Virus record (IMG/VR): IMGVR_UViG_3300032313_001465
Location: 84,582-148,581 of that record
Strand: one strand, 5' to 3'
DNA: 64,000 nucleotides
Origin: a virus
The notes beneath the pieces are model-generated. The model saw nothing but the letters and a program-made list of their open reading frames with translations, was not told where the DNA came from and searched no databases. The position numbers and the translations under genes were made by a program. Below are positions 9,977-63,831 of the stretch, piece after piece (positions within the stretch are counted from its first letter, which is position 1; each line of letters begins with the position of its first letter).

Positions 9977-10735
9977 ATGATTAAATTACTAAGTCTTTTA
10001 AAAGAAATAAAAGGTAAACCTAAAGCTATCTTTTTATCGGGTCCTGCAGGATCTGGGAAAACATTTATTTCTAAAAAATTAATCTCTTTAGACAAATTTC
10101 AAGTAATTAATATAGATGATACTTATGAGGAACTATTAAAATCTTCGGGTATGGGGATGAATCAAAAGAATTTTAGTCCTGAAGAGTTATCTCAAGCTAC
10201 TAAATTAATGGGTCGTGCTCAAGCAGTAACTAAAGAAAAATATGCTAAAGCACTTGAAGGATTAAACAATGTTATTATAGATGGTACAGGTGCTGCTTCA
10301 AAACCACTAATAAAGAAAAAATCAGAATTAGAAGCACTAGGATATGATACATTCATGTTAATAATTTGGACATCCCCTATAACTTCTTTATCTAGAAATG
10401 CAGAACGTGAACGTTCATTAATGCCAAGTATTGTGTTACGTACTTGGAGAGACATTAATAAAAATATAGATTTATATAAACAAGCATTTGGAGATAATAT
10501 AGCTATAATCAATAATGATCCTGAAGGTTTAGAAACCAAATTTGATGTTGAAGATATTAAGAAAAAATATTTTACAAAACAAATGGGAAAACCAAAAACA
10601 CCTGCAGAGCAAGAAAAATCTAAAAAAGAAACAGAACAGTTGAATAAAGATATAGAACAATTTATTAAAGAAAAACCACAATTCAACACCTTATCAGACG
10701 CTCAATCCAAAATAAATAAATTCATAAACAGCTAA
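9977..10735 (+). CDS. P-loop kinase (zeta-toxin/polynucleotide-kinase-like) with class B leader
   Basis: A Walker A motif SGPAGSGKT lies at residues 21-29, followed by NIDDTYEELL and a later basic RNAERERS segment that may form the lid. This is the fold of zeta-toxin and polynucleotide kinases; the phosphoryl acceptor cannot be told. The start is set at 9977, not 9971, because MIKLLSLLKE then matches the class B leader of many genes here, with LKE as a possible prohead-protease site. The last 60 residues form a charged helix. The gene is coupled to the LRR gene by TAATG. Packaging into the head is inferred. Confidence 0.72.
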   Translation: MIKLLSLLKEIKGKPKAIFLSGPAGSGKTFISKKLISLDKFQVINIDDTYEELLKSSGMGMNQKNFSPEELSQATKLMGRAQAVTKEKYAKALEGLNNVIIDGTGAASKPLIKKKSELEALGYDTFMLIIWTSPITSLSRNAERERSLMPSIVLRTWRDINKNIDLYKQAFGDNIAIINNDPEGLETKFDVEDIKKKYFTKQMGKPKTPAEQEKSKKETEQLNKDIEQFIKEKPQFNTLSDAQSKINKFINS

Positions 10736-11271
10736 TGATAAAACTTTTAGACCTCTTACGCGAAGAAAAACTAAATATTCTTAAACCTAGACGTTCCCCG
10801 GAAGAACGCCAATCTAACTTTCTTATTATAACCAATAAGAAAATTGAACAGTACATGAAGGATGGAGGCAAAGGTGATCTTGATTTAGCTAATACTAAAA
10901 TTACCTCACTACCAAATGGTCTAAAGGTTGGCGGTTTTCTGGATTTAAGAAATTCTTCCATCACTACATTACCAAATGGTTTAACGGTTGGAGATTATCT
11001 TTATTTAAGAGATACTAAAATTACATCATTACCCAATGATTTAACGGTTGGGGGTGAACTTGATTTAGCTAATATTAAAATTACTTCATTACCAAATGAT
11101 CTAACGGTTAGGGGTGATCTTAATTTAAGAGATACTAAAATTACATCATTACCAAATGGTCTAACAGTTGGAGGTAATCTTGATTTAGAAAATACTCCAA
11201 TAAGTAAAAAACATTCCGAAGAAGAAATTAAAAAAATGGTTCCGGGAGTAAAAGGCAATATTTATATATAA
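10735..11271 (+). CDS. Leucine-rich-repeat protein with class B leader (5 repeats)
   Basis: The leader MIKLLDLLREEK (possible cleavage after LRE) precedes a basic segment and five 20-residue repeats of the form DLxLxxTKITSLPNGLTVGG (about residues 47-146), then EEEIKKMVPGVKG. The repeats match a short bacterial LRR and would build a small solenoid for protein binding. A paralogue with fewer repeats lies at 21079 and shares the same leader, connector and tail. The target is unknown; a packaged effector that binds a host protein is one possibility. Confidence 0.72.
   Translation: MIKLLDLLREEKLNILKPRRSPEERQSNFLIITNKKIEQYMKDGGKGDLDLANTKITSLPNGLKVGGFLDLRNSSITTLPNGLTVGDYLYLRDTKITSLPNDLTVGGELDLANIKITSLPNDLTVRGDLNLRDTKITSLPNGLTVGGNLDLENTPISKKHSEEEIKKMVPGVKGNIYI
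10872..11171 (+). repeat. Five tandem 60-bp LRR-coding repeats
   Basis: Imperfect 60-base direct repeats, each containing TTACCAAATG or a variant followed by GTTGG, encode the 20-residue LRR units. Sequence similarity between units would allow gain or loss by slippage or recombination. Confidence 0.8.
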
Positions 11272-11611: not shown

Positions 11612-12004
11612 ATGAAAAAATCAGAATTAAGACAACTTATTAAAGAAGAAGTTGAATCTATAGTAAATGAGACACGTACTAAAGATTTTGAAGTAAAAGA
11701 TGAAATTGGTAAATTTTTTGTAGTTACATCCCCATATAAAGATAGTACTAAAGAAGATATATTATTTGATTCTGATGTTTTTCATTTTGCAAATCAAGTT
11801 AAAGAAGGACTATCATTACATGATGTTATAGGATTATACAAAAACAAATCAGATGCCAATAGAATAGCAACTGAAGCCTTAAAAGAACGTGATACCCATT
11901 TAGATGAATTAAAATCATCAATGGAAGAATTCAGAAACCATAAAAAAGAAACAGAAGATAAAAAATCAAAAGCTAAGGAATTAATTCAAAAATTAAAAAA
12001 ATAA
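11612..12004 (+). CDS. Helical protein of unknown function with class A leader, 130 aa
   Basis: The leader MKKSELRQLIKEE then VESIVNE is nearly identical in DNA and protein to that of the gene before it. The body has a small alpha/beta segment (about residues 25-85) and ends in a highly charged Lys/Glu coiled-coil-like helix. It overlaps the next start by one base (TAATG). No family recognised. Confidence 0.58.
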   Translation: MKKSELRQLIKEEVESIVNETRTKDFEVKDEIGKFFVVTSPYKDSTKEDILFDSDVFHFANQVKEGLSLHDVIGLYKNKSDANRIATEALKERDTHLDELKSSMEEFRNHKKETEDKKSKAKELIQKLKK

Positions 12005-13056
12005 TGAATTCTTTAGTAGAATATTTAATTATGCCTATTATAGGAGAATCTACCTATAAACCGGGAGTAGTATTACTTCCAGGAGCATTCAAACCCCCAA
12101 CCGAAGGACATTTTAATTTAGTTAAGGAATTGGCTATGGATCCTAGAACAAAAGAACTAATAATTATTATATCCTCAGGTCAGAGAGAAAATATAGGTTC
12201 TGAAGAATCTGAAAAAATATGGAAAATATATCTTAAACATCTTCCAAGTAATGTTAAAGTAATGATATCTCCTGAAAGTTCTCCAGTTAAAGCAGCATAT
12301 AGTATTATAAAAGATAATCCCGATACTCATTATTTAGTAGCAGTAGGATATAGAAATGAAAAAGATAAAAAGGATATCGATAGAATCAAATCCTCAGAAA
12401 AATATCCAAATGCTGAAGGATTAGTATATAAAACAGATTCATCCACAAGAGCTATAGACGCCCGAAAAGAACTAGAGTCAAATAATCAAGAAGGATTTAA
12501 TGAATATTTACCATCTCAACTTACCCCATCTGAAAAAAATAAAGTGTGGAATATATTAACTAAACCCCCAATCCAAGAGTCGGATCGAAAAGGAATTAAA
12601 GCATTTTCCCGTGAAATTATAACAACCAATGAATCACAATCTAAAGATTTTTCATTTTCATTAGAGGGGGGTTGGCTTCTTAAAGATGGGTTATTATCTT
12701 TATCAAATTCCATGATTGAAAGTGGAATAAATATTAAGCCGCTTCCTAAAGTTATATTAATAGAAGATGATAAAAGCAATGCATCTAATATTTTAGGTAA
12801 AACCGCTTATTATGATCCACAGAATAAAACAATAGTGCTTTATACTTTAAATCGTCATCCTATTGATGTGATGAAGAGCTTTTGTCATGAAATGTGGCAT
12901 CATCATCAAAACCTAGAAGGTAGATTAAACAATATAAATACTACTAATACTAATGAAGATGATTATTTAAATGAAATAGAAAAAGAAACATACTTAAATA
13001 GTCAGATTATATATAGGAATTGGGCTGATAAAATGAGAAAATTAAATAATGATTAA
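12004..13056 (+). CDS. Nucleotidyltransferase-like domain fused to an HExxH metallopeptidase-like domain
   Basis: Residues 27-36 (GAFKPPTEGH) are the nucleotide-binding signature of the HxGH nucleotidyltransferase superfamily (NMNAT, PPAT, cytidylyltransferases), with T33-E34-G35-H36 in place of HxGH. SSTRAIDARKEL near residue 147 resembles the second (ISSTxIR) motif. The C-terminal part carries HEMWH (H295, E296, H299) with a later EIEKE helix that could give a third zinc ligand. The N-terminus has IIGE at residues 12-15, a possible prohead-protease site. The substrate of each domain is unknown. It overlaps the HAD gene by 8 bases. Confidence 0.68.
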   Translation: MNSLVEYLIMPIIGESTYKPGVVLLPGAFKPPTEGHFNLVKELAMDPRTKELIIIISSGQRENIGSEESEKIWKIYLKHLPSNVKVMISPESSPVKAAYSIIKDNPDTHYLVAVGYRNEKDKKDIDRIKSSEKYPNAEGLVYKTDSSTRAIDARKELESNNQEGFNEYLPSQLTPSEKNKVWNILTKPPIQESDRKGIKAFSREIITTNESQSKDFSFSLEGGWLLKDGLLSLSNSMIESGINIKPLPKVILIEDDKSNASNILGKTAYYDPQNKTIVLYTLNRHPIDVMKSFCHEMWHHHQNLEGRLNNINTTNTNEDDYLNEIEKETYLNSQIIYRNWADKMRKLNND

Positions 13057-13567
13057 ATTGAAAGACATATTCGAAAACGAAGTAATAGATCAGGTATTTC
13101 AAATATATTGTGATCTTGATGGGGTGTTAGCAGATTTTGATAAACGATTCGAATATTTTGCAGGGATGTCTCCTTCTGAATATGAAAAAGCATTCGGAAC
13201 TAAAAAGTTTTGGGAACTGATAGACGAAAAAGTAGGTGTAAAATTTTGGACAGGAATACCGTGGATGTCGGATGGTAAAACACTTTGGGAATTTCTTCAA
13301 CCACACAATCCTATACTTTTATCCGCTCCCTCTAGAAATGAATCAAGTAAAATGGGTAAAAGAATTTGGGTTAAACGAAACATGCCTGGAACTAAACTTA
13401 TTTTAGCAAGTAGAAGTAATAAACAAAACTATTCTGATAAGTCTAACATACTTATCGACGATAGATTAGACACAATTGAAGAATGGAGAGCAAGAGGAGG
13501 AATAGGGATCCATCATACTTCAGCCGCATCAACAATAGCACAATTAAAAAAATTAGGATTTAAATAA
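13049..13567 (+). CDS. HAD-family 5'(3')-deoxyribonucleotidase-like protein with class B leader
   Basis: After MIKLKDIFENE comes the HAD motif I DLDGVLADFD (D22 nucleophile, D24 acid/base). A conserved Ser region (LLSAPSRNE), a Lys-containing segment and motif IV-like ILIDDRLDTIEEW near residues 135-147 complete the fold. The order and the 172-residue length fit the NT5C-type 5'-nucleotidase group, which dephosphorylates deoxynucleotides. The leader suggests it is carried in the capsid, where IFE could be cut; that is inference. Confidence 0.78.
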   Translation: MIKLKDIFENEVIDQVFQIYCDLDGVLADFDKRFEYFAGMSPSEYEKAFGTKKFWELIDEKVGVKFWTGIPWMSDGKTLWEFLQPHNPILLSAPSRNESSKMGKRIWVKRNMPGTKLILASRSNKQNYSDKSNILIDDRLDTIEEWRARGGIGIHHTSAASTIAQLKKLGFK

Positions 13568-19419: not shown

Positions 19420-20232
19420 ATGAACAATAGACTCACTCGACTAATTAAAGAAGTATTATCATCCCCACCTAAAAAAGATTGTGGATGTGGTTGTCATGGA
19501 AAATGTACCAAATCCCCTACATTAAACGAAAATTTAGGAGTTAAAGTAATTATGACTGAAAATATGAAGTATCATATTGATAACAAAAAACCACTAATCG
19601 AAAATACATTCCGCTATGGTTCAAAAGCATTTTTAGATTTATGGGCTGAAGCTAGATACTTATATTCACGTGATGCTATTGATTTAAGTGAATCTGATAA
19701 ACAAATTATTTTAGAAACACATTTAGGAGAACGTGGTTTATTTAATGGTGAATTAGTTCCATTAGATTTACCTATGGAAGAATTAGACGAAAATACAGAT
19801 GATGTAGTGGCAGTATTGAATAATCCTAACATAGCTGACGACGTAAAGTCAATGTTATTCAACGCATATAAAAACGGACAATTAACATCTACCCAAGTAA
19901 TCAATATAATTAAAAAAACCGTTAAAGAGCATTTAAACGAAGCAGAATTTAAAGGTAAAGAAGTACAATTAGGTAAACCTAAACGTGGCGGTTCTAAAAA
20001 ATTCTTTGTATATGTAAAAGATCCTAAAACCAAGAAAGTTAAAAAAGTATCATTTGGAGATACAACTGGATTGTCAACTAAAATAAATAACCCCAAAGCA
20101 AGACAAGCTTTTGCCGCTCGTCATAAGTGTGGTACTGGGGAACCTAAAACAAGTGCTAAATATTGGTCATGTCGTTTACCTCGTTACAGCAAGCTTTTAG
20201 GATTAAAGAATTCATTTTCAGGATTTTGGTAG
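19420..20232 (+). CDS. Cys-rich conserved phage protein with class A-like leader, 270 aa
   Basis: MNNRLTRLIKEVLSS provides a leader with IKE, followed by a Cys cluster (CGCGCHGKC, residues 22-30) that could bind metal. An internal second leader-like helix (TVKEHLNEAEF, LNE site, about residues 167-177) precedes a basic C-terminal domain of about 90 residues with RHKCGTG and YWSCRLPRYSKLLGL. This C-terminal domain recalls small Cys/His-containing modules on phage proteins, here separable by proteolysis. Function unknown; processing is inferred. Confidence 0.58.
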   Translation: MNNRLTRLIKEVLSSPPKKDCGCGCHGKCTKSPTLNENLGVKVIMTENMKYHIDNKKPLIENTFRYGSKAFLDLWAEARYLYSRDAIDLSESDKQIILETHLGERGLFNGELVPLDLPMEELDENTDDVVAVLNNPNIADDVKSMLFNAYKNGQLTSTQVINIIKKTVKEHLNEAEFKGKEVQLGKPKRGGSKKFFVYVKDPKTKKVKKVSFGDTTGLSTKINNPKARQAFAARHKCGTGEPKTSAKYWSCRLPRYSKLLGLKNSFSGFW

Positions 20233-21078: not shown

Positions 21079-21495
21079 ATGATAAAACTTTTAGATCTTT
21101 TACGCGAAGAAAAGCTTGATATCCTTAAACCTAGACGCTCTGAGGAAGAACGCCAAGCTAACTTTCTCATTGCAACCAATAAAAAAATTGAACAATACAT
21201 AAAGGATGGAGGCAAAGGTGATCTTAATCTACAAAATACCCCAATTACTACATTACCAAATGATTTAACAGTTGGAGGTAATCTTTATTTAGATGGTAGT
21301 AAAATTACTACATTACCAAATGGTCTAAAGGTTGGTGGTTATCTTGATTTAGATAATACTAAAATTTCCACATTACCAAATGATCTAAAAGTTGGTAGTG
21401 ATCTTGATTTAAGAAATACTCCAATAAGTGAAAAATATTCCGAAGAAGAAATTAAAAAAATGGTTCCCGGAGTAAAAGGCGATATTTATACATAA
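21079..21495 (+). CDS. Leucine-rich-repeat protein with class B leader (3 repeats)
   Basis: Paralogue of the protein at 10735: the same leader MIKLLDLLREEKL, the same connector (NKKIEQYIKDGGKGDL) and tail (EEEIKKMVPGVKG) flank three full 20-residue LRR units plus partial ends. At 138 residues it is two repeats shorter. High DNA similarity at both ends points to a fairly recent duplication with change in repeat number. Role unknown; likely a binding protein delivered with the head. Confidence 0.72.
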   Translation: MIKLLDLLREEKLDILKPRRSEEERQANFLIATNKKIEQYIKDGGKGDLNLQNTPITTLPNDLTVGGNLYLDGSKITTLPNGLKVGGYLDLDNTKISTLPNDLKVGSDLDLRNTPISEKYSEEEIKKMVPGVKGDIYT

Positions 21496-21505
21496 ACATA
21501 AAATA

Positions 21506-22051
21506 ATGAACAAACTAAACAACTTAAACGAAATTACATCAGCTAACCAAGCTGATATCAAAATCCCAAATACTCTATCCCCAGATGTAACTAAAATGTT
21601 AATCGAAAGAATAGGAGATGAATATACTGCTCATTATTTTTATAGAAATGCATCTAACTGGTGTGATGATAAAGCATATAAAAAAGCAGCCGCATTTTTT
21701 AAAGCCGAAGCTGAAAGCGAATTAACACATGCCGAAAAATTACAAACATATTTAACAGGATGGAATATAATGCCTATCATTCCTCCAGTAAAAATGATCC
21801 CTTCATTCACTAATCTTATTGATATAGTAAACAAAGCATATGAAATGGAATACAATTTATTCTTATCATACAATTCAAATTCATCATCTGTTTTTCCTAC
21901 TGACTTAGCAACTTTTGATTTTTTACAAGAATTAAGACAAATCCAAAACCAGGCAATAGCTGAATATTCTGATTTATTAAATGCAGCTCAATTAGTTAAT
22001 GTGTCTAATAATTTTGAATTATTATACTTCGAAGGAAAATATTTTAAATAA
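21506..22051 (+). CDS. Ferritin-like diiron protein
   Basis: A four-helix ferritin pattern is visible: DEYTAHYFYRNAS supplies E39, ESELTHAEKL supplies E72 and H75, a central helix (AYEMEYNLFLSY, near residue 113) supplies another Glu, and FLQELRQIQNQAIAEYSDLL the last Glu/Gln. Such enzymes oxidise Fe(II) and store iron in a shell. At 181 residues it is near the family length (about 165-175) plus an N-terminal extension MNKLNNLNE with an LNE site. The extension and its leader-gene neighbours suggest capsid packaging, which would be unusual for a ferritin. Confidence 0.82.
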   Translation: MNKLNNLNEITSANQADIKIPNTLSPDVTKMLIERIGDEYTAHYFYRNASNWCDDKAYKKAAAFFKAEAESELTHAEKLQTYLTGWNIMPIIPPVKMIPSFTNLIDIVNKAYEMEYNLFLSYNSNSSSVFPTDLATFDFLQELRQIQNQAIAEYSDLLNAAQLVNVSNNFELLYFEGKYFK

Positions 22052-23139: not shown

Positions 23140-23457
23140 ATGGTAAAACTACTTCAATTACTAACTGAAGCTAAAGAAAGCTTTGAACAATTTGCTACAA
23201 ATCGTTTAGCAGGTGCTGAAAAAATTATAGCTAATGCCAAAGAAAAGGGTGGTGATGCTTTATTAACATACACCCACTTTAAAATAAAACCATCTTACTA
23301 TAAAAAAGCTATAGATGGGAAATTTGATAAAGAATCCGCTAAAAAAGAATTTGAGCAAACATACAAAAAAATATCATTAGATATGACTCAAACTGAATTT
23401 CAAAGAGAGGTTGGTCGTTTAGAAGTATTAGGTGAACTATTAATAAGAGAAAAATAA
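23140..23457 (+). CDS. Small helical protein with class B leader, 105 aa
   Basis: MVKLLQLLTEAKE is a class B leader variant with an LTE site. The remainder is helical and charged (NRLAGAEKIIANAKEKGGDA, FEQTYKKISLDMTQTEF) with no cysteines or catalytic motif. The next gene begins directly after its stop. No family recognised. Confidence 0.55.
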   Translation: MVKLLQLLTEAKESFEQFATNRLAGAEKIIANAKEKGGDALLTYTHFKIKPSYYKKAIDGKFDKESAKKEFEQTYKKISLDMTQTEFQREVGRLEVLGELLIREK

Positions 23458-23458
23458 T

Positions 23459-23878
23459 ATGATTAAATTAACAGATATATTAAACGAAGCAGAGATAAAT
23501 AAATGTCCGTCTCCAACTCAAAGTATTGAGTTAAACCTTCAAAATAGACAGAAGGCAATTAATGAATATGGATATGGTCCCTTAAATCCTAATGAACCTA
23601 ATGAAAAGTTTTGGCAAGCTAAAGCAGATATGTGGAAACTTGATTCTGTAAAAGAGGCTAAAACATCACGTTGTGGTAATTGTGCGGCATTTGATGTTAC
23701 AGAAAAAACACTAAATTGTATAGCTAAAGGAATAGGAAACGATGAAGGATCAGAAGATCCATTTGACGTAATTAAAGCAGGACAATTAGGATATTGTAGG
23801 TTTTTAAAATTCAAATGTGCTGCTGCTCGAACTTGCGATGCTTGGGTTGTTGGTGGTCCAATTAAAGATCCAATGTAA
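23459..23878 (+). CDS. Cys-cluster (metal-binding) protein with class B leader, 139 aa
   Basis: The leader MIKLTDILNEAE (LNE site) precedes a compact Cys-rich domain: CGNCAAF, NCIAKG, GYCRF, FKCAAARTCDAW. The six or so spaced cysteines with aromatic neighbours fit an iron-sulfur (high-potential-type) or zinc cluster. It is coupled to the cupin gene by TAATG. Redox or structural role cannot be settled from sequence alone. Confidence 0.6.
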   Translation: MIKLTDILNEAEINKCPSPTQSIELNLQNRQKAINEYGYGPLNPNEPNEKFWQAKADMWKLDSVKEAKTSRCGNCAAFDVTEKTLNCIAKGIGNDEGSEDPFDVIKAGQLGYCRFLKFKCAAARTCDAWVVGGPIKDPM

Positions 23879-28674: not shown

Positions 28675-30255
28675 TTGGAATCTCAAATAAAAGACATAAT
28701 GAGACAGGAATATATAAAATGTCTCCAAGATCCTGCCCATTTCATGAAAAAATATTGTTACATTAGTCATCCTCAAAGAGGAAGAATTATGTTTCACTTA
28801 TATCCATTTCAAGAAAAGGTATTAGGTTTATTTCAAAAAAATCCATACTCCATAATACTTAAATCTCGTCAGTTAGGTATATCTACATTAGCTGGTGGGT
28901 ATGCTTTATGGTTAATGTTATTCCATAAAGACAAGAATATTTTATGTATTGCAACTAAACAGGATACAGCTAAAAATATGGTTACTAAGGTAAAATTTAT
29001 GTACGATAATTTACCTTCATGGTTAAAAGAAAAAGGTAAACCCTTAGAAGACAATAAACTAACTCTCAAACTAAATAACGGCTCTCAAATTAAAGCAACG
29101 TCTGCCTCGAGTGATGCAGGTAGATCAGAAGCTGTGTCCTTACTATTAGTAGATGAGGCCGCTTTTATTGAGAATATAGGAGAGATTTGGGCATCCGCTC
29201 AACAAACATTAGCAACAGGAGGAGGAGCAATTGTTCTTAGTACTCCATATGGAACTGGAAACTGGTTCCATCAAACTTGGGTTAAAGCAGAATCATCTGA
29301 AAATGATTTCTTACCTATCAGACTTCCATGGTATGTTCATCCTGAAAGAGATCAAACATGGAGAGATAAACAAAATGACTTATTAGGAGATCCAAGATTA
29401 GCAGCCCAAGAGTGTGATTGCGACTTTTCAAATTCAGGAGATACTGTATTACATCCTGAATATATAAAATACTATGAAGAAACTTATATTAAGGAACCGT
29501 TGGAGAGGCGAGGAGTTGATCGTAACTTATGGGTATGGGAATCTCCAGATTATACTCGTCAGTATTTATTAGTAGCGGATGTAGCTCGAGGTGATGGAAA
29601 AGATTTCTCAGCATTTCACGTTATTGATGTAGAAACTAATACACAAGTAGCTGAATATAAAGGGCAAATTGGAACTAGAGAGTTTGGGTATTTATTAGTG
29701 GGAGTAGCTACTGAATATAATAATGCTTTATTAGTAGTAGAAAATGCAAATATAGGATGGAGTACATTACAAACCATTCAAGAAAGAAACTATGCTAATC
29801 TATATTATTCTCCAAAAAATGGAGAAATTACCGCAGATTCGTATTTTGATCAATTTATGGATTCAAGTAAAACAGTAGCTGGATTTACAATGTCTTTAAG
29901 AACAAGACCTATGGTAATAGGTAAATTCCAAGAATATGTTGGTGATAGATCAGTAGTTATTCAATCTAAAAGATTATTAGAAGAAATGAAAGTATTTGTT
30001 TGGAAAAATGGTAGAGCTGAAGCTCAACAAGGATATAATGATGATTTAATTACATCATTTTCTATTGCTATGTTTTTAAGAGATACAGCATTTAAGTTTA
30101 AACAACAAGGTCTAGATTTAACTAGAACCGCATTAAATAATTTTTCAACCGGAAAAAGTCAATACCAAGGAGCATATTTCGCAAGAGGAACAGATAACCC
30201 ATATTCTATGAATATAAAGGGCCAAAGCGAAGATTTAACATGGTTAACAAGATAA
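28675..30255 (+). CDS. Terminase large subunit (T4 gp17-like)
   Basis: The packaging motor ATPase-nuclease. The ATPase domain has a variant Walker A KSRQLGIST (about residues 63-71), in which the P-loop Lys is shifted, as in many T4-type terminases, and Walker B LLLVDEAAF (about 156-164). The nuclease domain shows VADVARGDGKDFS (about 300-312), VVENAN and YNDDLITSFS near the C-terminus. 526 residues is somewhat short of T4 gp17 (610). The start is TTG at 28675 or ATG at 28699; I cannot decide. No small terminase is recognised beside it. Confidence 0.9.
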   Translation: MESQIKDIMRQEYIKCLQDPAHFMKKYCYISHPQRGRIMFHLYPFQEKVLGLFQKNPYSIILKSRQLGISTLAGGYALWLMLFHKDKNILCIATKQDTAKNMVTKVKFMYDNLPSWLKEKGKPLEDNKLTLKLNNGSQIKATSASSDAGRSEAVSLLLVDEAAFIENIGEIWASAQQTLATGGGAIVLSTPYGTGNWFHQTWVKAESSENDFLPIRLPWYVHPERDQTWRDKQNDLLGDPRLAAQECDCDFSNSGDTVLHPEYIKYYEETYIKEPLERRGVDRNLWVWESPDYTRQYLLVADVARGDGKDFSAFHVIDVETNTQVAEYKGQIGTREFGYLLVGVATEYNNALLVVENANIGWSTLQTIQERNYANLYYSPKNGEITADSYFDQFMDSSKTVAGFTMSLRTRPMVIGKFQEYVGDRSVVIQSKRLLEEMKVFVWKNGRAEAQQGYNDDLITSFSIAMFLRDTAFKFKQQGLDLTRTALNNFSTGKSQYQGAYFARGTDNPYSMNIKGQSEDLTWLTR

Positions 30256-30266
30256 AATAAACAAAA

Positions 30267-32168
30267 ATGGCAGATAAAAGTGTATTTACAAGACTAAAAA
30301 GGTTATTTTCTACGGATGTAATCATCAGAAACCAAGGTGGGAATAACATTCGTGTAATAGATGTTAATCACATCCAAACTACTGGAGAAATTGAAACTAA
30401 TTCACTTCAAGATAGATTTAATCGAATATATAGTAGCACAAACCCATCATCTTTATATGGAGCTCAATTTAATCTTAACTATCAATATTTAAGAACACAA
30501 ATGTATTCTGAATATGATGTTATGGATACTGATGCTATTATAGCCTCTGCTCTAGATATTATTGCAGATGAAAGCACATTAAAAAATGAACAAGGAGAAG
30601 TATTACAAATTGTAAGTAGTGATGAAGATGTTCAAAAAATATTATATAACTTATTTTATGATGTATTAAATATAGAATTTAATATGTGGTCATGGGTAAG
30701 ACAAATGTGTAAATATGGTGACTTTTTCTTAAAATTAGAGATAGCTGATAAATTTGGAGTATATAATGTTATCCCATATACTGCATATCATATTGAAAGA
30801 CAAGAAGGATACGATAAAGCAAATCCTGCTTCTATAAGATATGCATTTTCACCTGATGGTTTTGCTGGGGGTAGTTATGGTTACTATAACTTACCAAATC
30901 AACCTACTAATTCAAATCGAATTTATTTTGATAACTATGAGATGGCTCATTTCAGACTAATCTCAGATGTAAATTATTTACCTTACGGAAGAGCATATAT
31001 TGAACCAGCGCGTAAATTATATAAACAATACTCTTTAATGGAAGATAGCATGCTTATCCATAGAATAGTTAGAGCGCCGGAAAAACGTGTATTTTATATT
31101 AATATTGGAGGCATTCCACCTAATGAAGTAGAAGCATTTATGCAAAAAACAATTTCTGCTATGAAACGTACTCCATATATTGATCCTGAAACTGGAGAAT
31201 ATAATTTGAAGTATAATATGCAGAATATGATGGAAGATTTCTATATTCCAGTTCGTGGGAATGATGCAACTACTAAAATTGATACTACAAAAGGTTTAGA
31301 GTATGATGGTATTAAGGATGTTGAGTATTTAAGAGATAAAATGTTTGCTGCCTTAAAAGTTCCAAAAGCTTTTATGGGTTATGAGAAAGATTTAACTGGA
31401 AAAGCTACATTAGCAGCCGAAGATATTAGATTTGCTCGTACAATTGATAGAATACAGAGAATAATATTATCTGAACTTGAAAAAATTGCTTTAATCCATT
31501 TATATACACAAGGATATGATGGTGAACAGTTAACTAATTTTAAATTATCTCTTACTACTCCTTCAATTATATACGATCAAGAACGTTTAGCTCTTTTAAA
31601 AGAAAAAGTAGATTTAGCTGTAACTATTTTCGAAAACGATGTTTTACCATCTGATTGGGTTTACACTAACGTATTCCATTTAAGTGAAAGTGAATTTGGT
31701 GAAATGAGAGATCTAAATGTGGAAGACGCAAAACGTAGATTTAGACTAAAACAAATATCAGAAGAAGGAAATGATCCATTAGAAACAGGTAAATCATATG
31801 GTACACCTCATGATTTAGCAACACTATATGGCACAGGAAGATATGATAATACAGCTGATGTTCCTGCTGGATATAATGAAAAAGCTACTTTAGGTCGTCC
31901 TGTAGAAAAAAGTTCAAATATAAATACTCAAGGCAATGCTTTTGGTAGAGATAGATTGGGGGTTGCTGCTATGAAAAAAGATGATCAACCATCATTTGGT
32001 AAAACCAATTATAAAGGAGGTTCACCTCTAGCATTAGAAGGAACCAAAAAATCTTATTTTCAAAATAGAAAATTATTAGAGAATATGAAAGTAGAACGCA
32101 AAGTAATGATTTTTGAATCAGACAAAAACAAAGAGTCATTACTAGATGATTCTCAGTTACTACCTTAA
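30267..32168 (+). CDS. Portal protein (T4 gp20-like)
   Basis: It forms the dodecameric portal at the special head vertex. The core starts with YSEYDVMDTDAIIASALDII (about residues 77-96), typical of T4-type portals, followed by WSWVRQMCKYGDFFLKLEI and a crown-like C-terminal region rich in Lys and Gly. Length 633 is longer than T4 gp20 (524), with an extended low-complexity tail (about residues 520-633). It lies between terminase and the protease/core genes, the canonical order. Confidence 0.9.
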   Translation: MADKSVFTRLKRLFSTDVIIRNQGGNNIRVIDVNHIQTTGEIETNSLQDRFNRIYSSTNPSSLYGAQFNLNYQYLRTQMYSEYDVMDTDAIIASALDIIADESTLKNEQGEVLQIVSSDEDVQKILYNLFYDVLNIEFNMWSWVRQMCKYGDFFLKLEIADKFGVYNVIPYTAYHIERQEGYDKANPASIRYAFSPDGFAGGSYGYYNLPNQPTNSNRIYFDNYEMAHFRLISDVNYLPYGRAYIEPARKLYKQYSLMEDSMLIHRIVRAPEKRVFYINIGGIPPNEVEAFMQKTISAMKRTPYIDPETGEYNLKYNMQNMMEDFYIPVRGNDATTKIDTTKGLEYDGIKDVEYLRDKMFAALKVPKAFMGYEKDLTGKATLAAEDIRFARTIDRIQRIILSELEKIALIHLYTQGYDGEQLTNFKLSLTTPSIIYDQERLALLKEKVDLAVTIFENDVLPSDWVYTNVFHLSESEFGEMRDLNVEDAKRRFRLKQISEEGNDPLETGKSYGTPHDLATLYGTGRYDNTADVPAGYNEKATLGRPVEKSSNINTQGNAFGRDRLGVAAMKKDDQPSFGKTNYKGGSPLALEGTKKSYFQNRKLLENMKVERKVMIFESDKNKESLLDDSQLLP

Positions 32169-35206: not shown

Positions 35207-35827
35207 ATGAGTAAACAACTTCTAATAGAAACTAGACCATTCCAAGTTAATCCAATGCAACTTGTTGAAGGAACCAAAGGATCTTCAGGAAATCCATTAG
35301 TAGAAGGTATTTTAGCTACAGTAGAAGTAAAAAATGGAAATGGAAGATACTACAAGAGAGAGTTATGGGAAAGGGAATTAGAAACATACATGCAAAGTAT
35401 TAAAGAAAATCGTGCAACTGGAGAATTAGATCACCCCAGCACTGAAGTTATTAACTTAAAAAATGTATCTCATGCTATCAAAGATATTTGGTGGGATGGG
35501 GACAACATAATGGGTAAAATCGAAATTCTACCTACCCCATCAGGTAATATCCTAAAAGCACTTATAGAAAGCAATATCTCAGTAGGAGTATCTTCAAGAG
35601 GAATGGGTACTTTAAAACAAGAAGGCGATTTAATGGAAGTACAAGATGATTTTACATTAACATGTTGGGATTTTGTATCTACTCCTTCTAATCCAGGTAG
35701 CTGGATGCATCCAATAAATGGAATGATGAACGAAGGTTTACAATCAATTAAAACAAATAAGTATTCTAAAGTAAATTCTATTCTTTTTGAAATATTATGC
35801 GCTCACGGCACTTGCCCAATAATTTAA
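35207..35827 (+). CDS. Prohead core protease (T4 gp21-like, peptidase S77 family)
   Basis: The start at 35207 (MSKQLLIE) is chosen over an in-frame upstream codon that would overlap the previous gene by 26 bases. Catalytic motifs are GELDHPS (H76) and GVSSRGMG (S129 or S130, nucleophile), as in T4 gp21, with length 206 against 212. Its own N-terminus has LIE and LVE sites that fit self-processing. It should cut scaffold, capsid and leader peptides after (I/L)xE. A strong terminator follows. Confidence 0.88.
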   Translation: MSKQLLIETRPFQVNPMQLVEGTKGSSGNPLVEGILATVEVKNGNGRYYKRELWERELETYMQSIKENRATGELDHPSTEVINLKNVSHAIKDIWWDGDNIMGKIEILPTPSGNILKALIESNISVGVSSRGMGTLKQEGDLMEVQDDFTLTCWDFVSTPSNPGSWMHPINGMMNEGLQSIKTNKYSKVNSILFEILCAHGTCPII

Positions 35828-36028: not shown

Positions 36029-37096
36029 ATGTCAACAAACAGAGATTTATTAAAAGAAGCGATCGCTGACGCTAAAGCAGTAAAAGATACAGCAATTGCA
36101 AACGCAAAAATGGCTCTTGAAGAAGCATTTACTCCACATTTAAAATCTATGTTCTCCGCTAAAATCAACGAGATGGAAGAGGAAGATATGGATGAAGATA
36201 TGGATTACAATGACGAAAACATAGAGCAAAACGAAGCCAAAAAAAGAGGTGGAAAAAATGAAAAGGTTGTTAAAGAATTCTATTTAGAAGAAGACGAAAT
36301 CAATCTAGAAGAACTTATGTCTGAATTAGAAAAAGATGAAATGGAAGAAGTAATTAATGATCCTAGAGGTCCTAGAGCTCACGGTAATATAGCTTCTGGA
36401 GGAATGTCAGATGATGCTTTAATGGAAGCCGAAGAAGAAACTGAGGAAGAAATGAGTATTGAAGACATGTCTGAAGAAGATTTAAAAGATTTCATTGAAA
36501 GTGTAATTAAAGACATGGTTGAAGCTGGAGAAATTGAAGCTGGTTCTGAAGAAGAAGAAGAAGAAGAAGAAGAAGGTGAAAGTATTGATGAGTTCTTAAA
36601 CGAAATGGAAGGTGATGACCTTAAAGAATATGGTCAAGAACAACCTATATCAGTTGAAGACGCTTTATCAATTGTATGTAAATCATATCCAAACAATGCA
36701 TTATGTAAAGGAATGAAAGAAGGCAAAGGTGCAAAAGAAAAATCAAACAAAGAATTAGAAGAAGCATACAGAGTTATTAGATCAATGAAAAAAGACATTA
36801 ACGAAGTTAACTTACTAAACGCAAAATTACTTTACACCAATAAAATCTTCAGAGGTAAGAGCTTAACTGAATCTCAAAAGATTAATGTATTAGGTGCTTT
36901 TGACAGAGCAACAACCGCTAAAGAAGCTAAACTGGTATATGAATCATTGTTGAGTAATTTAAAAACACCAACAAGAAACATTCAAGAAAATTTAGGTAGA
37001 GCTTCCAAGTCAGTAACTGTTCCTCAAACAAAACAACCTATTATTGAATCAAATGATATGGTAGCAAGGTTCCAAAAATTAGCAGGTATTATTTAA
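36029..37096 (+). CDS. Prohead scaffold/core protein (T4 gp22-like)
   Basis: It is highly acidic, helical and just upstream of the capsid gene, as expected for the scaffold. Residues 1-50 contain DLLKEAIADAKAVKD, a heptad pattern; Glu runs lie near residues 150-190 (EEEEEEEEGESIDEF). The extreme C-terminus VARFQKLAGII matches the class C cargo leader (FRRMQKLAGII). This suggests that the cargo leader mimics a scaffold assembly element. Many LKE, INE and LME-type sites fit destruction by the protease. T4 gp22 is 269 residues; this one is 355. Confidence 0.82.
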   Translation: MSTNRDLLKEAIADAKAVKDTAIANAKMALEEAFTPHLKSMFSAKINEMEEEDMDEDMDYNDENIEQNEAKKRGGKNEKVVKEFYLEEDEINLEELMSELEKDEMEEVINDPRGPRAHGNIASGGMSDDALMEAEEETEEEMSIEDMSEEDLKDFIESVIKDMVEAGEIEAGSEEEEEEEEEGESIDEFLNEMEGDDLKEYGQEQPISVEDALSIVCKSYPNNALCKGMKEGKGAKEKSNKELEEAYRVIRSMKKDINEVNLLNAKLLYTNKIFRGKSLTESQKINVLGAFDRATTAKEAKLVYESLLSNLKTPTRNIQENLGRASKSVTVPQTKQPIIESNDMVARFQKLAGII

Positions 37097-37136: not shown

Positions 37137-38780
37137 ATGGCAAACATTCAAAACTTACTCGAATCAGCTAACCCGTATAAATCACTACAAGGTGATGCGG
37201 CTAGATTAGCAAACAAATGGAGTAGAACAGGATTGTTAGAAGGTATCAAAAATGAAACCGAGAAAAACAATATGTCTATGATCCTTGAAAACCAAGCAAA
37301 ACAATTGGTAATTGAAGCCTCTCAAACAGGAGGTGGTACTTCTTCAACAGCTACTTTTACAGCAGGTGTTGGTGAACAATGGGCAGGTGTAGCTCTTCCG
37401 TTAGTTCGTAAGATCTTCGGTCAAATTGCATCAAAAGAATTCGTTAGTGTTCAACCAATGAACTTACCTTCAGGTCTAGTGTTTTTCTTAGATTTCCAAT
37501 ATGGTACATCTAAAAATCCATTTACAGCAGGTAAATCAATGTATGGTGATACTGGTTCTAACTTTGGTAATACAAACACTGGTGGTCTATATGGTGCTGG
37601 TAGATTTGGTTACTCAGTTAACAACACTTCATCTATTCAGGCAGCAACAACTGGTTCAGCTACTTGGTCTACTTTTGATCTAGATAGTGATTATTCAGCT
37701 TCAGCAGCCGCTGGTTCTTGGAAAACATTAACTGTAACTTTATCATCTACAACTGATTTCTTAGCAGCTAGATCATTTACTCTTACTTCTGCTTCTAACA
37801 TCGCAGTAACAGATAACTTACCTGCATTTACTACTTTTAATACAGCAAATAACACTGTAACTTTCGTTATTACTGGTTCAAAAATAACTGATGCTTTTGC
37901 TCCAGCTGGTTCATTACCAAACGTTACTTGTTCATATTCATTACAACCAACTGATAAATACAGAGGTGATTTTGAAGATGCTAACACTGCTTTGAACGCA
38001 AACAACAGTTCAATTACAATTCCTCAAATCAACGTTCAAATGAGATCTGAAGCAATTGTTGCTAAAACAAGAAAATTAAAAGCAGCATGGACTCCGGAAT
38101 TCGCTCAAGATTTAAATGCCTACCATGCATTAGATGCTGAAGCTGAATTAACTAGCATTATGAGTGAATACATCAGTTTAGAAATTGACTTAGAAATTTT
38201 GGATATGTTGATCGAAACAGCAGCCGCAGGTACTGAATATTGGTCAGCAGTAAATAACCAAAGTTTAAGTGTAAGTGGTACTACTGTAACTAACAACCCA
38301 TCTTTAGGTTTCTTTAACACACAAGGACAATGGTTCCAAACTTTAGGAACTAAAATCCAAAAATTATCAAACGCAATTCACCAAAGAACATTAAGAGGTG
38401 GTGCAAACTTCATCGTTTGTTCTCCAACAGTAGCAACTATCTTGGAATCAATCCCAGGTTTTGCAAGTACTTCTGATGGTGAAGCTTCAAAAATGACTTA
38501 TGCATTTGGTGTACAAAAAATGGGTCAATTGAATGGTAGATATCAAGTATACAAAAATCCATACATGACAGAAAACACTATATTGATGGGTTACAGAGGT
38601 CAACAATTCTTGGAAACAGGTGCAGTTTTTGCTCCATATATTCCATTGATCATGACTCCGTTAGTGTACGATCCAAACACATTTACTCCTAACAAAGGTC
38701 TATTAACTAGATATGCAAAGAAAATGGTAAGACCTGAGTTTTATGCAAAGATCTTCGTTTCAGGTTTAAATACTCTATAG
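37137..38780 (+). CDS. Major capsid protein (T4 gp23-like, HK97 fold)
   Basis: MANIQNLLESANPYKSL starts an N-terminal delta domain of about 60 residues; the probable cleavage is after VIE60, just before ASQTGGGT, similar to T4 gp23 cut after residue 65. Recognisable core parts include RKIFGQIASKEFVSVQPMN, the E-loop region, and the C-terminal RYAKKMVRPEFYAKI. Length 547 is close to T4 gp23 (521). An A-rich leader and codon choice unlike neighbours (more GGT, GCT) fit very high expression. A terminator follows. Confidence 0.93.
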   Translation: MANIQNLLESANPYKSLQGDAARLANKWSRTGLLEGIKNETEKNNMSMILENQAKQLVIEASQTGGGTSSTATFTAGVGEQWAGVALPLVRKIFGQIASKEFVSVQPMNLPSGLVFFLDFQYGTSKNPFTAGKSMYGDTGSNFGNTNTGGLYGAGRFGYSVNNTSSIQAATTGSATWSTFDLDSDYSASAAAGSWKTLTVTLSSTTDFLAARSFTLTSASNIAVTDNLPAFTTFNTANNTVTFVITGSKITDAFAPAGSLPNVTCSYSLQPTDKYRGDFEDANTALNANNSSITIPQINVQMRSEAIVAKTRKLKAAWTPEFAQDLNAYHALDAEAELTSIMSEYISLEIDLEILDMLIETAAAGTEYWSAVNNQSLSVSGTTVTNNPSLGFFNTQGQWFQTLGTKIQKLSNAIHQRTLRGGANFIVCSPTVATILESIPGFASTSDGEASKMTYAFGVQKMGQLNGRYQVYKNPYMTENTILMGYRGQQFLETGAVFAPYIPLIMTPLVYDPNTFTPNKGLLTRYAKKMVRPEFYAKIFVSGLNTL

Positions 38781-61776: not shown

Positions 61777-62205
61777 ATGAAAGTAACAGAATTTAGAAAA
61801 CTAATCCGAGAAGAAATAAGTAAGGTGTTGAAAGAAGAGAAACTTCCTGAAGACACAAAATACGATATTGATGATTTAATTGATAATGTTATTATAACCA
61901 CACTTATTGAAGATATGGGATTAACCCCTATAGGTCTGACTCAAGCTATTCATTATTTGATTCAAAAATTACAAATAAAGTATCAACAAATAAAAGGTGA
62001 AAATAGTTTAGCTGAAAATAGTATTAATACTTATTACAAAGACTTAATAATCCAACAAATTAATAAACGATTGTTTAAAATATTTGATAGAGGTGGAATG
62101 GTAGAATCTGAATACCAAGATCTTCAAAATTATCTTAAAATGTTAGATGATAAAAACAACAAACAATCAAAAACAAACAAAAACAATGAAAACAACAGAA
62201 TTTAG
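61777..62205 (+). CDS. Class A leader protein of unknown function, 142 aa
   Basis: MKVTEFRKLIREEISKVLKEE is a class A leader with IRE and LKE sites. The body is helical (DDLIDNVIITTLIEDMGLTP; HYLIQKLQIKYQQIKGENSL) and ends in a hydrophilic Asn/Lys tail translated from the CAAAAAC repeats that precede the next leader. That tail suggests the stop codon was acquired by read-in to the neighbour's spacer. It overlaps the next gene by 20 bases. Confidence 0.58.
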   Translation: MKVTEFRKLIREEISKVLKEEKLPEDTKYDIDDLIDNVIITTLIEDMGLTPIGLTQAIHYLIQKLQIKYQQIKGENSLAENSINTYYKDLIIQQINKRLFKIFDRGGMVESEYQDLQNYLKMLDDKNNKQSKTNKNNENNRI

Positions 62206-62491
62206 AAAACTAATCCGAGAAGAAGTTCGTAAAGTAGTTAAAGAAAATGAATTTAATGATTTAAATTCAATAGTTCAAAAACTTAAACCAAGATGGGGTG
62301 ATGTATCTATAAAAGATAATAAAATACGGTTGAGAACTTATTATAAGAACGGTAATCTAAAAAATTGGTATACTATTGAAAAAATAGGTGATGATATGTA
62401 TCGTTTTGGTAGAGGAGGAAAACAATTAAGAGATTGGTCTTTAGATGATTTAATGTTTAATCTTGTATATAACAAAAATATTAGTTTATAA
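62186..62491 (+). CDS. Class A leader protein of unknown function, 101 aa
   Basis: The ATG at 62186 gives MKTTEFRKLIREEVRKVVKE, an exact class A leader; an upstream in-frame ATG is inside the previous gene. The body (about residues 25-101) has a beta hairpin (NKIRLRTYYKNGNLKNWYTI) and ends in a helix. No known motif. The leader DNA is nearly the same as at 61777, 62940 and 63845. Confidence 0.58.
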   Translation: MKTTEFRKLIREEVRKVVKENEFNDLNSIVQKLKPRWGDVSIKDNKIRLRTYYKNGNLKNWYTIEKIGDDMYRFGRGGKQLRDWSLDDLMFNLVYNKNISL

Positions 62492-62527
62492 AAACAACAA
62501 ACAATCAAAAACAAAAACAAAAACAAA
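62465..62527 (+). repeat. AACAATCAAAAAC-type spacer repeats
   Basis: CAATCAAAAACAAAAACA-type spacers recur before the leader genes at 62186 (62158-62185), 62528 (62493-62527) and 63493 (63462-63492). They contain no gene and could serve as homology for cassette exchange. Confidence 0.6.
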
Positions 62528-62926
62528 ATGAAAAAACAAATACTAAGCGAACAATTTCGACGTATGCAAAAATTAGCAGGAATTATTAATGAAGGTCAAG
62601 AAAAATATCCAAAAGGTTTTACTCCATATACACCCACCAAAGAAGACGATGAAAATTATGATGGAAAAGTATTAGCTGCCTATACAGCACCTATGGATGG
62701 GTGGGATGAAAATAATTCGGATACTGTAGTAGTTATGAAAGATGAGGAGGGCTTTTGGGTAGATGGATATCTTAGCTTTGGTGATTTTGAAGACGAGGAA
62801 GGTACAGGACCATTCAAAACCCAAAAAGAAGCCGAAGATAAGGCTTATGAAATAATGGAAGACATTGTAGATAATTGGGAAGATGAGGATTATGATGATG
62901 AAGATGATGACGACGATGATTATTAA
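62528..62926 (+). CDS. Acidic protein with class C leader, 132 aa
   Basis: MKKQILSEQFRRMQKLAGII then NE is the purest class C leader and is repeated almost base for base at 63493. The middle contains VVVMKDEEGFWVDGYLSFGD, a small beta domain, and the C-terminus is a run of Asp and Glu. Sites LSE and INE could be cut. The acidic tail resembles DNA-mimic or core proteins. Function unknown. Confidence 0.6.
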   Translation: MKKQILSEQFRRMQKLAGIINEGQEKYPKGFTPYTPTKEDDENYDGKVLAAYTAPMDGWDENNSDTVVVMKDEEGFWVDGYLSFGDFEDEEGTGPFKTQKEAEDKAYEIMEDIVDNWEDEDYDDEDDDDDDY

Positions 62927-62939
62927 TTAAAAATAAACA

Positions 62940-63461
62940 ATGAAAGCAACAGAATTTAGAAAACTAATCCGTGAAGAAGTTAGAAAAATATTAACTGAAG
63001 CAAAATCCGAAAATTATCCTTTTATGTCAACTCCAGAGCAAGAAAAATTATATGATAGACTTGCTACAGACTTAGAAAAATTTATAAATAATATAGCTAC
63101 AAAATTAGAAATTAATCCTTCAAATATTAGAATGATATGTAGTGGATTAGGGGATAAAGGAGAATATAGAAATAAAGGATTAGTAGTTCAAATTAAAGCT
63201 AATGATAGTAAATGGAAAGGGATACATGGTAATAATCTTATTATACAAACTATAAATGACGAAGGTGTATTAATAGATACAAAAGAGGTTGAAATAAAAG
63301 GATCTAAAAATAAAGAATTAAGAGATATTTGGAATAAAGCAATAGATCTAGAAATGGACGATTATGTGTCACAGTTTAATACAAAATTAGCAAGTTCACT
63401 TACCCCAGAAGAAGCAAAATTAATACATCAATATACTCCAGTAATAATAACTGGTAAATAA
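62940..63461 (+). CDS. Class A leader protein of unknown function, 173 aa
   Basis: MKATEFRKLIREEVRKILTE is a class A leader with LTE. The body is alpha/beta (LEINPSNIRMICSGLGDKGE; GLVVQIKANDSKWKGIHGNN) and ends in a helical Pro/Glu segment. No catalytic motif recognised. With the gene before it, it forms one copy of a repeated two-gene cassette. Confidence 0.58.
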   Translation: MKATEFRKLIREEVRKILTEAKSENYPFMSTPEQEKLYDRLATDLEKFINNIATKLEINPSNIRMICSGLGDKGEYRNKGLVVQIKANDSKWKGIHGNNLIIQTINDEGVLIDTKEVEIKGSKNKELRDIWNKAIDLEMDDYVSQFNTKLASSLTPEEAKLIHQYTPVIITGK

Positions 63462-63492
63462 TCAAAAACAATCAAAAACAATCAAAAACAAA

Positions 63493-63831
63493 ATGAAAAA
63501 ACAAATACTAAGCGAACAATTTCGACGTATGCAAAAATTAGCAGGAATTATTAATGAAAGCGAATTTAAAGTGGGGGATACAATAAAAATACCATTTACT
63601 TTATCTACAGGTGATGAAAGTGAAGGAGAAATTTTAGCAATTTCTACATATTTATCTAACAAAAAAGCAATTGATAAGGCTATTAGAGACAGTGGATGGG
63701 AAGGTGGAGAAAAAGAAGAATTAACTTGGTACAAAATAAAAACTCCAGATGGGATCGAATGGATAGATAGTGAGGAATTATCGGTAATGGGTGATGAAGA
63801 TGATGAAGATGATGACGACGATGATTATTAA
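63493..63831 (+). CDS. Acidic protein with class C leader, 112 aa
   Basis: The first 22 residues are the same as those of the protein at 62528 up to MKKQILSEQFRRMQKLAGII, and the last residues again are an Asp run ending in Tyr. The middle differs (FKVGDTIKIPFTLSTGDESE, beta-rich). Ends conserved and centre replaced: a swapped cassette. Function unknown. Confidence 0.6.
   Translation: MKKQILSEQFRRMQKLAGIINESEFKVGDTIKIPFTLSTGDESEGEILAISTYLSNKKAIDKAIRDSGWEGGEKEELTWYKIKTPDGIEWIDSEELSVMGDEDDEDDDDDDY

Follow-up and report, generated by a model that had tools for sequence, protein, structure and literature searches.

A phage ferritin with a conserved leader resembling a prohead-protease site in a T4-like genome

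Introduction

Why should a T4-like phage carry a ferritin gene whose product begins with a short extension resembling a capsid-targeting leader, and would such a protein act in the infected cell or in the virion? The question is raised by a locus in a stretch of 64,000 nucleotides, here called the window, which comprises bases 84582–148581 of the 148,581-base virus record IMGVR_UViG_3300032313_001465. Judged by its genes for portal, prohead protease, capsid, sheath and terminase, the phage is T4-like; the sheath gene was found by family search and the others are listed with the ferritin features in Table 1.

Table 1. Features of the ferritin gene and of the surrounding window (positions of the window).
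Feature	Position	Strand	Evidence
Upstream partner, Cys-rich N-terminus and basic C-terminal domain	19420..20232	+	phrog_7595, PHROG E=1.7e-12
Ferritin CDS, 181 aa	21506..22051	+	PF00210 E=1.7e-17; PDB ferritins E to 3e-14; AF2 model
Leader residues 1-9 MNKLNNLNE, putative capsid-targeting propeptide	21506..21532	+	18/21 clade rows, pN/pS
Predicted prohead protease site E9/I10	21530..21535	+	KVP20 MCP LNE/A; S77 protease in genome; cleavage inferred
Ferroxidase ligand E39 (FtnA E17 / human H E27)	21620..21622	+	71/71 rows
Ferroxidase residue Y46 (human H Y34)	21641..21643	+	71/71 rows
Bridging ligand E72 (FtnA E50 / human H E62)	21719..21721	+	71/71 rows
Ligand H75 (FtnA H53 / human H H65)	21728..21730	+	71/71 rows
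Ligand E115 (FtnA E94 / human H E107)	21848..21850	+	71/71 rows
Q147 (FtnA Q127 / human H Q141)	21944..21946	+	71/71 rows
Helix E, residues 169-179	22010..22042	+	AF2 model
Neighbour ORF, gp24-like leader	23140..23457	+	leader pattern; relatives near ferritin in 10 loci
Neighbour ORF, leader MIKLTDILNE/A	23459..23878	+	leader pattern; relatives in 9 loci
Terminase large subunit	28675..30255	+	phrog_2 E=1.7e-49
T4 gp20-type portal	30267..32168	+	PF07230 E=7e-65
S77 prohead protease (gp21 type)	35207..35827	+	PF03420 E=3.7e-29
Putative scaffold, gp22 position	36029..37096	+	sits between protease and MCP
Major capsid protein Gp23	37137..38780	+	PF07068 E=2.6e-78

Results

Fold and ferroxidase centre

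The ferritin ORF has a single clear start, an ATG, and its span includes the stop codon. The initial annotation took its product for a ferritin, and this is almost certainly what it is. It matches the Pfam Ferritin family at 64.1 bits against a cut-off of 24.5, and among solved bacterial ferritins in the PDB it matches 50 distinct sequences with E no higher than 0.01, 1krq being the best. These matches begin at residue 21 or later, so that the first 20 residues fall outside the matched part. In the AlphaFold2 single-chain model, which was built with 23 phage relatives (mean pLDDT 91.1, pTM 0.83), the helices at residues 26–55, 59–85, 104–129, 134–164 and 169–179 correspond to ferritin helices A to E, and there is a weak helix at residues 4–9, inside the leader. 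Structure alignment of residues 19–181 to ferritins gives Z 22.8–23.5 and 1.1–1.8 Å among the 50 matches listed; the four-helix bundle and the C-terminal helix E are both present, aligned with ferritins through residue 181. In helix E, E176 is kept in 71, Y179 in 69 and L173 in 68 of the 71 aligned proteins.

E39, Y46, E72, H75, E115 and Q147 align with E17, Y24, E50, H53, E94 and Q127 of Campylobacter jejuni 1krq, and all six H-type ferroxidase residues are kept in every one of the 71 distinct aligned phage proteins, which bears out the earlier reading of E39, E72 and H75 as ferroxidase ligands. Their correspondence to human H numbering in Table 1 is in part one that we take to be correct. 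The third-site set of FtnA (E49, E126, E129, E130) is not kept in the window protein, which has S71, I146, Q149 and A150 at these places, and an E at the place of FtnA E130 is found in one of the 71 rows. By alignment, then, every residue of an H-type centre is in place and the third iron site is lacking; PMC7557750 lists the H-type residues as E27, Y34, E62, H65, E107 and Q141. With an H-type di-iron centre and all five helices, the protein should therefore form an iron-mineralising cage, of 24 subunits as the fold and family lead one to expect.

Distribution of the family

An alignment query finds the ferritin family in at least 117 viral contigs, as against 29 viral loci for a single query; 80 of the 117 matches were returned for analysis and 37 were left out. 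The tree and alignment hold 71 proteins, with identical proteins counted once and one locus (L060), whose start lies on a stop, dropped. A tblastn search with three family members as queries gave no ferritin match in 50,697 named phage records. The scan of bacterial and archaeal genome contigs, for which the search patterns were phage-specific and may miss cellular sister ferritins, yielded one relative (L091), in a small MAG beside phage tail and replication genes; in the phylum of this MAG, 1 of 192 genomes matched, namely the MAG itself.

Foldseek against viral models returned ferritin-like proteins of uncultured phages, the nearest being a fragment named Ftn with 55% identity. Any idea that ferritins as such are new to phages is thus wrong, those of uncultured phages being already annotated in databases; what is new is the tagged form. 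Our literature search found no study of phage ferritins and no packaged phage ferritin, only a paper on giant viruses (PMC7136201). Three uncultured-phage entries in BFVD named "prohead protease" (A0A6J7XDU5, A0A6J7WPK9 and A0A6J7WIS1) match the ferritin model weakly (E 0.04–0.13), which suggests that in other phages a head protease is joined to a ferritin/Dps-like domain.

Conservation and register of the leader

In the tree, the window protein sits in a well-supported clade of 22 (99/93), the tag of which is 7–13 residues long and has the form K/Q-L-x-x-hydrophobic-N-E. The N-terminus is intact in 21 clade rows: the site reads hydrophobic-N-E in 18 of them, IKE in L008 and ING in L013 and L091, where G replaces the E of the site; L013 keeps an LGE upstream. 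Across the clade the motif is preceded by 5 to 10 residues, and the distance from its end to an invariant proline is 11 residues in 21 of 21 rows, those with IKE and ING counted. Directly behind the predicted cut, all 21 rows have I, L or M.

Codon comparison of the 21 clade genes indicates strong purifying selection on N8-E9, where pN/pS is 0.053 as against 0.565 in leader residues 2–6 and 0.573 in linker residues 10–20, values that come from non-independent pairs with every region compared on identical pairs. A13 in the linker is as invariant as the site, which means that the site is not the sole constraint on the N-terminus.

About half of the relatives are without the leader. The motif is lacking in 37 of the 71 family rows (a count that includes L005, truncated at its N-terminus by the contig end) and 9 have only hydrophobic-x-E, the row labels "none" and "PhiNE" considering only residues before the fixed proline. 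The motif-less rows include the sister group L016–19 and the clade located in a head operon, and no such leader is present in most of the distant relatives. Outside the clade, hydrophobic-N-E occurs in 5 of 18 lineages compared with 1.14 in shuffles (P=0.003); the loose form hydrophobic-x-E shows no excess there (9 of 18 versus 9.05). Five leaderless proteins (L044, L046, L049, L050 and L058) have 12 residues before the proline and I as second residue, so that their Met stands at the place of E9 and their I at the predicted mature start. Other leaderless groups begin at different positions.

The T4 IP proteins and gp24 carry propeptides of 10–20 residues that are described as capsid targeting sequences (PMC5694885), and a 10-residue leader is reported to load about 370 LacI copies into T4 heads, where gp21 removes the leader (PMC10229621). 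In the T4 record, gp24 starts MAKINELLRES and IPIII starts MKTYQEFIAEA. The major capsid protein of the T4-like phage KVP20 has its annotated mature start after GLNE, that is, LNE followed by A, and so differs after the cut from the clade ferritins with their I, L or M. It is likely, on these sequence comparisons, that the leader is a conserved element with the form of a prohead-protease site. The initial proposal that MNKLNNLNE is a leader thus holds as a sequence feature, given the conservation of N8-E9, the fixed register, the S77 protease of the same genome, the KVP20 LNE and the gp24-like leaders of neighbours described below.

Leaders of neighbouring genes

Neighbouring ORFs in the window have the leaders MIKLLDLLREE, MIKLTDILNEAE and MVKLLQLLTEAK. 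Leaders of the gp24-like pattern, which was modelled on gp24 and the neighbour leaders and devised after seeing the latter, are found in 7 of 31 ORFs of the ferritin block (8.2–28.7 kb, ferritin included) as compared with 1 of 158 elsewhere; with the ferritin excluded the figures are 6 of 30 and 1 of 158 (Fisher P=7e-5). Over the whole genome the pattern is moderately above shuffles (8 of 189, versus a mean of 2.24 and a maximum of 9 in 2000). The plain hydrophobic-x-E criterion picks out 21 of 31 ORFs in the block and, in three further regions of the genome, 46 of 141 (P=4e-4). Across the family, gp24-like neighbours number 33 of 304 near ferritins of the leader clade and 2 of 65, 12 of 108 and 53 of 644 near three groups of leaderless ferritins; being about as common near the latter, such neighbours are not predictive of a ferritin leader. 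A test of whether each ferritin leader follows the style of the other leaders in its genome was mostly negative: similarity to leaders of the own contig exceeded that to other contigs at P<0.05 in 5 of 44 ferritins, with P=0.068 for the window. The ferritin leader does not, on this test, clearly form one module with those of other genes in the genome.

In the window genome and in Flavobacterium phage immuto, the leader types MKKSELRQIIKEEI and MKKQILSEQFRRMQKLAGIINE turn up repeatedly on proteins that otherwise differ. Two stretches of the window, 10735–11271 and 21079–21495, encode near-copies of a leucine-rich-repeat-like protein, which share the leader MIKLLDLLREEK. At the right end of the record, ORFs with leaders (MKVTEFRKLIREEI, MKKQILSEQFRRMQKLAGIINE) form a second cluster at 61777–63831.

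Head genes and gene places

Both an S77 protease and a T4-type head are encoded in the ferritin's own genome, and of 22 large records with a ferritin, 20 have the protease. The putative scaffold has no family match and no PHROG at E 0.05. Immuto is the nearest named relative by capsid (58.8% identity over 99%), which means that leader-bearing phages may have Flavobacterium-like hosts. Its gene order is similar: the tail genes are followed by those for primase, exonuclease, a cytidylyltransferase-like protein and a nucleotidase, and then by the terminase. The cytidylyltransferase-like and 5'-nucleotidase-like genes of the window (12004–13056 and 13049–13567), which lie in the ferritin's block and have leader-like N-termini, have counterparts at 107131–110455 of immuto that are annotated as NMN adenylyltransferase and deoxyribonucleotidase; the pair is possible NAD-related cargo. 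In four loci (L071, L074, L075 and L077; G011 and G013–G015) there is a second, short S77 protease-like ORF (132 aa) about 4 kb from the ferritin.

In 19 of 71 loci a relative of the upstream partner is the gene directly before the ferritin; the window has two ORFs between the two genes, one of them with NUMOD homing-endonuclease domains. Many members of this partner family have a CGCGC-type N-terminal cysteine cluster, followed by a conserved middle part and by LNE, LDE or LTE and an A just before a basic C-terminal domain that ends in YW(S/A/G)C. Going by this motif, the partner may be cut by the prohead protease, freeing a basic peptide.

In one clade, leaderless ferritins lie between the S77 protease and scaffold-like and capsid genes, with both sides visible in six loci (L027, L054, L061, L063, L066 and L085), for the last of which Pfam confirms the setting; two more, L021 and L026, are cut by contig ends. 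The ferritin is adjacent to a tail tube gene in L044, L058 and L064 and within a few genes of one in L046, L049 and L050, and in some other loci it precedes the terminase by a few kb. General nearness to head or tail genes (25 of 71 loci) was discounted as evidence, because such genes fill much of these genomes; of the gene places, the fixed one between protease and scaffold is the one that we count. Early in one record (L032:1006–2919) there are GroES- and GroEL-type chaperonin-like ORFs, named from their N-termini.

Discussion

We tentatively propose, giving it a little less than an even chance, that in the window's clade the ferritin is docked by its tag, packaged in the head and trimmed. 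The front tag would act as a T4-type propeptide and dock the ferritin in the prohead, within its scaffolding core; the S77 protease that the phage encodes would cut after E9; and the trimmed ferritin, starting at residue 10, would stay with the packaged DNA and, by holding or oxidising iron, keep down the DNA damage that metal drives. Docking, cleavage, presence in the virion, cage assembly and benefit are all steps that we infer, and the purpose inside the head could be to guard the DNA from iron-driven damage rather than to carry iron. The virus may, as we read its genes, be carrying an iron cage with its DNA. A broader scheme, in which a T4-like lineage turns its head into a ferritin compartment by means of a cleavable tag and the gene of a sister lineage has instead come to lie in the head operon, flanked by protease and scaffold, is somewhat less likely than not.

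A serious alternative, which we put somewhat below an even chance, is that the ferritin works only in the infected cell, storing or detoxifying iron freed from the host or buffering iron for phage enzymes, and that the N-terminal site serves some other end, for example contacts between subunits or with a partner. All lineages keep the core, but not all keep the leader; the invariance of A13 is consistent with a structural N-terminus; and a passage of the giant-virus paper discusses viral ferritin likewise, as iron regulation (PMC7136201). Of the 22 large records with a ferritin, 13 also encode the small subunit of an iron-dependent class I ribonucleotide reductase. No match to such a subunit occurs in the record of the window, however, and iron supply to the reductase was rejected as a general reason. 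A role confined to the cell also leaves unexplained the T4-type form and fixed register of the conserved site, as well as the gp24-like leaders of the neighbours.

The packaged ferritin might mainly be a carrier of iron to the next host or to virion parts rather than a protector of DNA. The tail tube genes next to or close to some ferritins speak for this, and ideas on iron delivery by phages have appeared in print, but we found no sequence evidence for iron release. A ferritin cage measures about 12 nm and could not pass a tail tube intact. For the giant phage SPN3US a tail tube of about 30 Å is given (PMC5694885). At such dimensions intact cages would hardly exit and, if formed before packaging, would stay in the head, and we regard iron carriage as improbable. 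It is very unlikely that the ORF is a functionless gene captured from a host, or that it encodes some ferritin-like di-iron protein other than ferritin, the replacement of the third-site and B-site ligands E126, E129 and E130 of FtnA by I146, Q149 and A150 being the one point found in its favour, against a core pN/pS of 0.281 in the 21 clade genes, six H-type ligands in all 71 rows, and five helices with Z about 23 to ferritins.

Present in more than 100 viral contigs and in none of the 50,697 named phage records, the family represents a widespread and unstudied viral iron function. Should the tag work as its form suggests, this would be the first case known to us of a phage head being loaded with an iron cage. 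If true, it would bear on how virions survive oxidative damage and on virus-borne movement of iron in water, and would offer a viral parallel to iron-storing encapsulins, with a bearing on the link between phage heads and encapsulins.

Among characterized ferritins, the window protein shares its fold over residues 23–181 with the FtnA proteins (E. coli 1eum, C. jejuni 1krq and Helicobacter pylori 3bve; Z 22.8–22.9 and 1.4 Å for 1eum and 1krq), together with the equivalents of E17, E50, H53, E94 and Q127. Unlike FtnA, it lacks the third-site ligands and has about 20 extra N-terminal residues, and at 45.8 versus 178 bits it falls under the NCBIfam equivalog cut-off for E. coli-type ferritin. With human H-chain and mitochondrial ferritin it shares the six aligned H-type residues (Z 22.8–23.2 and 1.2–1.8 Å among the matches listed), but identity is about 19%, the human proteins have no prohead-site propeptide, and the window gene is viral. 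The uncultured-phage ferritins A0A6J5MFB8 (the 55% identical fragment) and A0A8D9C9X5 have the same fold, and we know of no leader analysis for them.

As in the T4 internal proteins and gp24, a short N-terminal leader ending in hydrophobic-x-E precedes a separate domain, and an S77 protease is present; the differences are the hydrophobic residue after the predicted cut, a body that belongs to a known enzyme family, and targeting and cleavage that are putative here. Encapsulins have an HK97-fold shell, into which iron-oxidising cargo of the ferritin superfamily is brought by a terminal peptide, and their cargo tags are C-terminal and not cleaved. The window system resembles them in an HK97-fold shell that would hold ferritin-type cargo by means of a terminal peptide, and departs from them in that its shell is a phage head, its tag is N-terminal and a protease is part of the system.
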